Shown: in pieces, positions 15,157 to 52,880 of the stretch
How the letters are laid out: each line of letters begins with the position of its first letter
How positions within the stretch are numbered: the first letter of the stretch is position 1
Assembly (NCBI RefSeq): GCF_000162875.1
Contig: NZ_GG700630.1
Coordinates: 698,015-762,014, forward strand
Source of the DNA: Slackia exigua ATCC 700122
Lineage (GTDB): Bacteria > Actinomycetota > Coriobacteriia > Coriobacteriales > Eggerthellaceae
Direction: 5' to 3'
DNA: 64,000 bases
Program-made: the position numbers and the translations under genes
The notes under the pieces: model-generated
Database searches by the model: none
Seen by the model: only the letters and a program-made list of their open reading frames with translations
Told to the model about the DNA's origin: nothing

Positions 15157-15171
15157 CGGAGGCACTGCGGT

Positions 15172-15335
15172 CGGCCACTCTGCGGTCGCGCGTGGCCGTG
15201 CGGGCCGTGCAGGCGTGTGGGTCATGCGGGCTGCATGGGCCGTGCCGACCGCGCAGGTCGTGCGGGTCGTGCGTGGGCCGTGCGGATCGCGCAGGTCGTG
15301 CGGGTCGTGCGGATCGTATGCGGTCATGCGCCGAA
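15172..15335. repeat. Degenerate 9-bp GC-rich tandem repeat
   Basis: About 16 imperfect copies of a 9-base unit of the type GTCGTGCGG run up to the AT-rich element that follows. A longer sub-block (CGCGCAGGTCGTGCGGGTCG) occurs twice, 30 bases apart, showing recent expansion. The second AT-rich copy at 52.6 kb is preceded by two or three units of the same repeat. Confidence 0.75.
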
Positions 15336-15560
15336 GGCCGTAAGTCAAACCCTTCCTCGATGCCAAAAAATCGAAGCTTAGTATACCCTATAGGGGTATA
15401 TTTTCAGTCCATATGTTGTTATTGCAACGAAGTGACGCTTGATTAAGGGCAGTTTCGTTGTGGGTACAACAGAAATGATGCGCGAGATTCTCTAAACAGC
15501 GATTTTTTGACATCGGCGTCGAATTCGATGGTCGAAAAGGGGCTATACCCCCCTTTTTTT
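15329..15560 (+). ncRNA. Candidate structured RNA element, copy 1
   Basis: AT-rich block matching 52649-52880 without gaps (about 75 percent by eye over 15331-15550). Four possible hairpins: TATACCC/GGGTATA (15382-15400), GTTGT/GCAAC (15415-15428), GTTGT/ACAAC (15457-15470) and AAAAGGGG with CCCCTTTT followed by more T (15535-15560), the last looking like an intrinsic terminator. Where the copies differ inside stems, pairing is kept by G.U on the plus strand but would be A.C on the minus strand, which favours a plus-strand RNA. No promoter is clear, so transcription is not shown. A structured DNA repeat is the alternative. Confidence 0.5.
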
Positions 15561-15880
15561 CATCCATGGATGGTACTGCACAGTCATCACAGTCATCACA
15601 GTCATCACAGTCATCACAGTCATCAAGGCTATCTCAGCCATCACGTTCATCCTGTGCATCCTGGCTATACCCTTTTTATCCATGGATGGCACATTCAGAA
15701 TTGCCGATCAGCTACGCTTGCGTCTTACGCCCCGCCCCATCCATGGATGGAACTGCGAGCCCTCTCCACTCTGCCCGTCTCAAAATCTTATACCCATCCA
15801 TGGATGGAACCGTCCGGCGGACAACAGGCTCAACAGGCGCGCTCGGTGTCGAGGCTATACCCCTGCCCATAGATAGAAAA
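15540..15880. repeat. Cluster of ATCCATGGAT palindromes preceded by TATACCC
   Basis: The palindrome ATCCATGGAT starts at 15562, 15678, 15739 and 15796; the third and fourth extend to CCATCCATGGATGG. A fifth degenerate unit lies near 15867. All units but the third have TATACCC shortly before the palindrome (15544, 15666, 15789, 15856). Intervals of 116, 61 and 57 bases are irregular, unlike CRISPR. The palindromes could be binding sites of a dimeric protein. No gene lies in this stretch. Confidence 0.7.
15581..15625. repeat. Five perfect tandem copies of a 9-mer
   Basis: CAGTCATCA is repeated five times without change at 15581-15625, then decays. It lies inside the palindrome cluster. Perfect copies suggest recent slippage. 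Confidence 0.9.
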
Positions 15881-15913
15881 CTGAACAACATACCGCGAGG
15901 CGGCGGCAGGAAT

Positions 15914-52648: not shown

Positions 52649-52880
52649 TGCCGAAGGCTGCAAGTCAAACCCTCCCTCAATGCCAAAAAATCAGAGTTTT
52701 GTATACCCTGTAGGGGTATATTTTCGATACATAAGTTGTAATTACAACTAAATAGTGCATCGCATAAGGCAGTTTCGTTGTAGTTACGACAAAAATAAGG
52801 TTCGAGATTCTCTAAACAGCCATATTTTGACACCGGCATCGGATTTCTCGTCGAAAAAGGGGCTATACCCCCTCCCCTAT
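52649..52880 (+). ncRNA. Candidate structured RNA element, copy 2
   Basis: Gapless partner of 15329-15560, offset by exactly 37,320 bases. The hairpins are kept: TATACCC/GGGTATA (52702-52720), a perfect AGTTGTAATTACAACT (52734-52749), GTTGT/ACGAC with one G.U (52777-52790), and AGGGG/CCCCT (52859-52873), here with a weak T run. Most conserved blocks are the hairpins and the boxes TGCCAAAAAATC, AGTTTCGTTGT, CGAGATTCTCTAAACAGC and TTTTGACA. Confidence 0.5.

Follow-up and report, generated by a model that had tools for sequence, protein, structure and literature searches.

Short, noncoding sequences dispersed through the intergenic regions of one species or a close group, with inverted arms that form hairpins, are familiar as MITE, ERIC/IRU and REPIN/BIME repeats; REP/REPIN sequences are mobilised by RAYT, a Y1 transposase. 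The spreading of transcription-factor sites by repeats is well known in eukaryotes; to our knowledge, the spreading of sites for bacterial repressors has rarely been documented, and the literature yielded nothing relevant on a CsoR-controlled small RNA or on a repeat carrying a repressor operator. CsoR is a Cu(I)-sensing repressor. Its type 2 operators have the consensus ATATACCCCTNAGGGGTATAT in S. lividans and the general form TAC-X9-GTA (PMC3902906). Sibling small RNAs, finally, occur as several similar structured copies.

The element described here bears comparison with each of these. It is short, noncoding, dispersed, intergenic, restricted to one species and bounded by inverted, hairpin-forming arms, as are MITE, ERIC/IRU and REPIN/BIME sequences, but differs from them in carrying a repressor operator and in that neither a target-site duplication nor a transposase was found in a partial search. 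Its arms, ATACCCC-CTAAGC...TTTTTTGnCA, match no arm set known to us. With the type 2 operators of csoR-copA and copZA promoters it shares TACCC-N5-GGGTA, the AT-rich flanks and TAC-X9-GTA (PMC3902906; congener csoR promoters), but while congeners have one or two such sites before csoR, the element places eight in dispersed repeats away from copper genes. It resembles sibling small RNAs in its several structured copies, some with a terminator-like end, and departs from them in its unconserved T-run, its unclear plus-strand promoter and an upstream arm that is part of the repeat.

The original prediction concerned 15329-15560 of the window (the whole 64,000-nucleotide stretch analysed), described as the first of two copies of a candidate small RNA aligning without a gap to 52649-52880, at about 75% identity by eye. 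The gapless alignment holds over some 223 bases; identity by BLAST is higher, at 81%, and the AT-rich island is confirmed, with a G+C content of 39-48% in the element compared with 56-63% in its flanks. The count of two needs correction, since the suggested search for further copies, made by BLAST in the species' own genome (2.10 Mb, two contigs), added six more at 73-94% identity. There are thus eight copies (c1-c8), of which c1 and c6 lie within the window, with E-values of 1e-26 to 1e-118 that far exceed chance; a covariance model built from the eight recovers the same eight in the genome. The features of the two window copies are as follows.

15329-15554, plus strand (orientation of the original prediction): element copy c1, aligned with seven other copies; covariance model 224.7 bits
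15333-15355, plus strand: short outer stem GAAGG...CCTTC of the MFE structure, kept in part by other copies
15358-15381, plus strand: left arm of c1, CGATGCCAAAAAATCGAAGCTTAG, pairing with the right arm (helix 1); arm profile E 2.1e-5
15380-15407, minus strand: promoter-like CTGAAA-16-TATACT over the operator of c1; PWM score 9.8
15382-15400, unstranded: predicted CsoR operator of c1, TATACCCTATAGGGGTATA (TAC-X9-GTA), close to the site at the species' own csoR promoter and to congener csoR operators
15415-15470, plus strand: central long hairpin of c1 with two GTTG...CAAC palindromes, from folding, copy alignment and pairing statistics
15490-15517, plus strand: right arm of c1, CTCTAAACAGCGATTTTTTGACATCGG, a conserved alignment block; arm profile E 3.3e-6
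15539-15560, plus strand: terminator-like terminal hairpin GGGG-CTATA-CCCC and T-run of c1, from the copy alignment
52650-52872, plus strand: element copy c6, from BLAST alignment; covariance model 200.5 bits
52680-52700, plus strand: left arm of c6; arm profile E 0.0014
52702-52720, unstranded: predicted CsoR operator of c6, TATACCCTGTAGGGGTATA, from the operator pattern search
52735-52790, plus strand: central long hairpin of c6, from folding and pairing statistics
52810-52837, plus strand: right arm of c6, CTCTAAACAGCCATATTTTGACACCGG; arm profile E 2.9e-5
52859-52871, plus strand: terminal hairpin GGGG-CTATA-CCCC of c6, its T-run degenerate

The four shared hairpins or palindromes of the original prediction are present in both window copies. 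Seen as a whole, the element is an imperfect palindrome with left arm CGATGCCAAAAAATCGAAGCTTAG and right arm CTCTAAACAGCGATTTTTTGACATCGG. Between the arms lie the 19-bp palindrome TATACCC-N5-GGGTATA (15382-15400 and 52702-52720) and the long hairpin, whose GTTG...CAAC palindromes occupy 15415-15428 and 15457-15470 in c1 and 52735-52748 and 52777-52790 in c6. Outside the arms are the GAAGG/CCTTC stem on the left and GGGG-CTATA-CCCC on the right (15539-15551 and 52859-52871). The most invariant part of the alignment (permutation P 0.003) is a block of 24 columns at the 19-bp palindrome, 21 of them invariant, compared with 2 in the central loop. Variable columns coincide between subgroups in three of four comparisons (P about 1e-3 to 7e-5), the comparison of c1-c4 with c5/c7 not being significant. 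The location of the operator in the most invariant block, together with the coinciding variable columns, indicates that positions are constrained. Copy c5 combines two subtypes as a mosaic, its left part like c7 (86%) and its right like c1 (94%), as expected of recombining repeats.

All eight copies are intergenic, and their neighbouring genes differ, with none in common. Flanking genes are convergent at c1, c6 and c7; c2 lies between two divergent genes, tauE-like and argG, and c3, c4, c5 and c8 have a tandem setting, between genes running against the element. The right-hand gene is convergent to the element in seven of the eight. A Fur-ferritin pair lies to the left of c3. That copy also shows a 19-bp tandem duplication (AAATGATGCACAAGATTCT) in the interval between central hairpin and right arm (L003, about 1640-1680). 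Copy c4 (C1:342613) is interrupted by some 830 inserted bp that have GGGGATGCGGAC and GTCCGCATCCCC at their two ends and are accompanied by a duplicated AAA, from which we take the insertion to be an IS3-type element. The same IS, recognised by its end GTCCGCATCCCC, is found inside c4 (L013, 4168-4990) and adjoining a more distant family member in L126 (about 980-1020), and may prefer these repeats as sites. The surroundings of c1 are themselves repetitive. On the 3' side, 15560-15900 is a degenerate tandem array in which CCATCCATGGATGG occurs several times and GGCTATACCC(C) is repeated at 15665 and 15855, one of the two followed by a T-run; it looks as if the element end and flank had been duplicated. 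A (CATCACAGT)n tract lies at about 15580-15625. On the 5' side, 15160-15328 is a degenerate GTGCGGGTC-like repeat, and about 120 bp of it are also present at c2, so that the block common to c1 and c2 exceeds the element.

The element family is species-specific within the genomes searched. BLAST did not find it in 60 relatives, 11 of them of the same genus, and the covariance model gave no convincing copy elsewhere among 138 genomes of the family, its two weak matches in other genera being short and unpersuasive. Neither was it found in 398 genomes of the class or in the plasmids, phages and viral contigs searched. The operator pattern by itself matches in seven viral contigs; an exact match in a Lachnospiraceae MAG is put down to chance, the rest of the element being dissimilar there.

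The 19-bp palindrome can be compared with a known site. Judged against the published description (PMC3902906), all eight copies have the features of type 2 operators, namely TAC-X9-GTA, two G/C tracts and AT-rich inverted flanks. The genome encodes a single CsoR-family protein, in which the Cys-His-Cys arrangement typical of Cu(I) sensors is present; its gene is followed by copA, and directly upstream of the csoR start is TATACCCCTATGGGGTAAC, which the palindrome of the element resembles. Operator-like sites with at most two mismatches number 12 in the genome, eight in the elements and one before csoR, and all eight perfect 17-base sites fall within element copies. In each of the ten congeners with csoR, such a site, mismatched at no more than one position, immediately precedes that gene; in five (L092, L093, L094, L096 and L097) it is flanked by a good -35 and a good -10. 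The c8 site TATACCCTCAAGGGGTATA equals the csoR operator of congener G005 at 19 of 19 bases. The perfect 17-base sites checked in congeners were at csoR or in tRNA-Ser, with one G009 site outside the check; the conserved site ATACCCCAAAAGGGTAT lies in the variable arm of tRNA-Ser and was therefore rejected as a CsoR site. From these resemblances, CsoR of this species would very probably bind the element sites in vitro. Copper-regulated transcription from the copies in vivo, predicted from the same sequences, is plausible but leans slightly to the doubtful side, and the operator might instead be conserved for transposition.

A weak covariance-model match at C1:214334, together with sampled stretches of the genome (554 kb in all), revealed more distant relatives. 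Across 400 kb of the genome, a profile of the arms marked five loci outside the window (L119, L121, L122, L126 and L134), mostly as inverted pairs, and it found no arms in 400 kb of congener G005. Extrapolation gives a rough estimate of 25 further members, which leans high because the L121 (D1) stretch had been chosen for its known match and L119, L126, L134 and D1 had themselves contributed to the profile. The eight copies are thus one subfamily of a wider inverted-arm repeat family. In L119, L126 and L134 the inner end of an arm reads ATACCCCCTAA; the eight-copy subfamily has ATACCCC-TATAGGGTATA-CTAAGC, in which an inverted insertion of 11 bp within ATACCCCCTAA makes the operator complete. 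As TACCC-N5-GGGTA was not found in L119, L122, L126, L134 or D1, the full operator is a feature of the eight-copy subfamily. The cores of D1, D2, L119 and L122 also differ from that of the subfamily. An arm-like unit (CTGnCAAAATATCnnnGCTTTGCGAAAAA) recurs in direct orientation outside one arm, from which a hairpin separates it, in D1 (L084, 2290-2540), L119, L122 and L134, a layout that is iteron-like.

With eight noncoding copies of about 225 bp and paired arms, the subfamily corresponds to the usual description of a MITE as short, noncoding, multicopy and bounded by inverted repeats. No consistent direct repeat indicative of target-site duplication was seen at the copy ends, a weak test given their uncertain boundaries, and congener synteny, in which only genes align, gave no empty site. 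Neither BLAST nor the covariance model found a longer element with the subfamily sequence in the genome, part of which was also searched with the arms. That the family is a transposition-type repeat we regard as likely. Our favoured description, of a species-specific, dispersed, MITE/REPIN-like inverted-repeat family with an eight-copy subfamily bearing a complete CsoR operator, seems to us reasonably probable.

Such a subfamily could have arisen by insertion of the 11-bp palindrome TATAGGGTATA into the left arm, converting the half-site ATACCCC/CTAAGC to TATACCCCTATAGGGTATA; the insertion would have come first and the spread of the subfamily second. In the most likely mechanism, copper-free CsoR would bind each copy and block a promoter overlapping the operator; once copper released it, transcripts, either short and noncoding or reading through, would start from each copy. 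These might run outward on the minus strand, or form on the plus strand a hairpin RNA some 150 nt long that ends at the GGGG-CCCC stem, or both, and the copies could jointly titrate CsoR. The outcome might be a small RNA, titration of CsoR alone, or transcription reading through into adjacent genes, the Fur-ferritin pair at c3 for instance; the next start codons lie some 300-900 bp downstream of the operator, so that it is not evident that the neighbours would be controlled directly. Counting against this scheme are the right-hand 150 bp, conserved though they lie outside any minus-strand transcript from the operator, and the uneven promoter quality. We advance only tentatively the fuller proposal that a mobile-type repeat captured a CsoR operator, or made one by templated insertion, and spread it to eight places where the repressor now controls noncoding transcripts or neighbours, a repeat-driven expansion of a metal regulon that possibly includes copper-induced sibling RNAs.

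The original prediction left a choice between a plus-strand RNA family and a structured mobile repeat. In its RNA form the element would be a set of plus-strand sibling small RNAs, each an independent gene with a CsoR-controlled 5' promoter, a long central hairpin, a conserved single-stranded UUCUCUAAACAGC and a terminator, induced by copper. Some evidence points this way. The remark that changes at the second and third hairpins preserve G.U pairs on the plus strand is borne out (GTTGTTATTGCAAC vs GTTGTAATTACAAC, GTTGTGGGTACAAC vs GTTGTAGTTACGAC), and over the eight copies, with helices picked without G.U pairs and the count therefore strand-neutral, eight columns are G.U-compatible on the plus strand compared with two A.C columns compatible with the minus. 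That bias is not significant (P 0.11-0.18), and leans towards a plus-strand RNA without proving it. In the proposed covariation check, cells of the consensus structure are paired at 94.0% compared with 92.3% in column shuffles, and seven pairs have changed on both sides compared with 3.4 expected; these double-sided changes are strand-neutral, and the copies are mutually related. The orientation of the operator agrees with the sense direction in most congener sites (three to four C followed by four to five G), and the convergent right-hand gene at seven of eight copies also suits such RNAs.

Other properties fit small RNA genes poorly. The left arm would lie upstream of the supposed promoter, yet it pairs with the right arm, and the relatives D1, D2, L119 and L122 have different cores. 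Folding beats shuffles on both strands (z -3.2 and -2.2 on the plus, -4.9 and -2.7 on the minus). The terminator proposed for c1 does have its hairpin and T-run, but the full run is found only in c1, c3 and c4 and is missing in five of eight; the terminal hairpin is broken in c7 and a minus-strand T4 occurs in all eight, so no conserved intrinsic terminator was found across the copies. By a simple sigma-70 score, plus-strand promoter candidates at the operator reach 5.4-5.9, none convincing, while CTGAAA-16-TATACT, which spans the palindrome on the minus strand of c1, c3 and c7, scores 9.8, compared with 7.1-12.4 for congener csoR promoters; the minus-strand -10 lacks its key last T (T6) in c5 and c6. 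The species' own csoR promoter scores only 1.6, which makes this score a weak guide. Moreover, the best-conserved hairpin matches a CsoR operator, so its conservation could be explained without any RNA. Independent small RNA genes seem to us rather unlikely, and of the two original options the mobile repeat is better supported, by the inverted arms, folding on both strands, dispersal, species restriction and the wider family.

One may also ask whether the operator likeness is an accident in a plain, decaying MITE/REPIN-type repeat, arising from palindromic arms that end ATACCCCC. The other family members have the half-site only, and the palindrome would result from inserting 11 inverted bp, with no selection for CsoR binding. 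Such a coincidence is nonetheless unlikely when set against the full identity of c8 to a congener csoR operator, the exact TAC-X9-GTA spacing in every copy and the near absence of such sites elsewhere. A riboswitch or leader controlling a downstream gene, to which the structure and the terminator-like hairpin end of three copies might have pointed, is highly improbable and was rejected because the downstream genes have no common class, three copies lying between convergent genes, and because, in line with the original view that no known riboswitch matches, Rfam gave no meaningful match at gathering or relaxed thresholds.

The element carries a caution: a palindrome that is conserved and whose changes are G.U-compatible may belong to a DNA operator within a repeat and not to an RNA. 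Should CsoR bind all eight copies, they would constitute a small, countable metal regulon rewired by a repeat, and the relatives without the full operator would, if this is true, represent the 'before' state of that rewiring.
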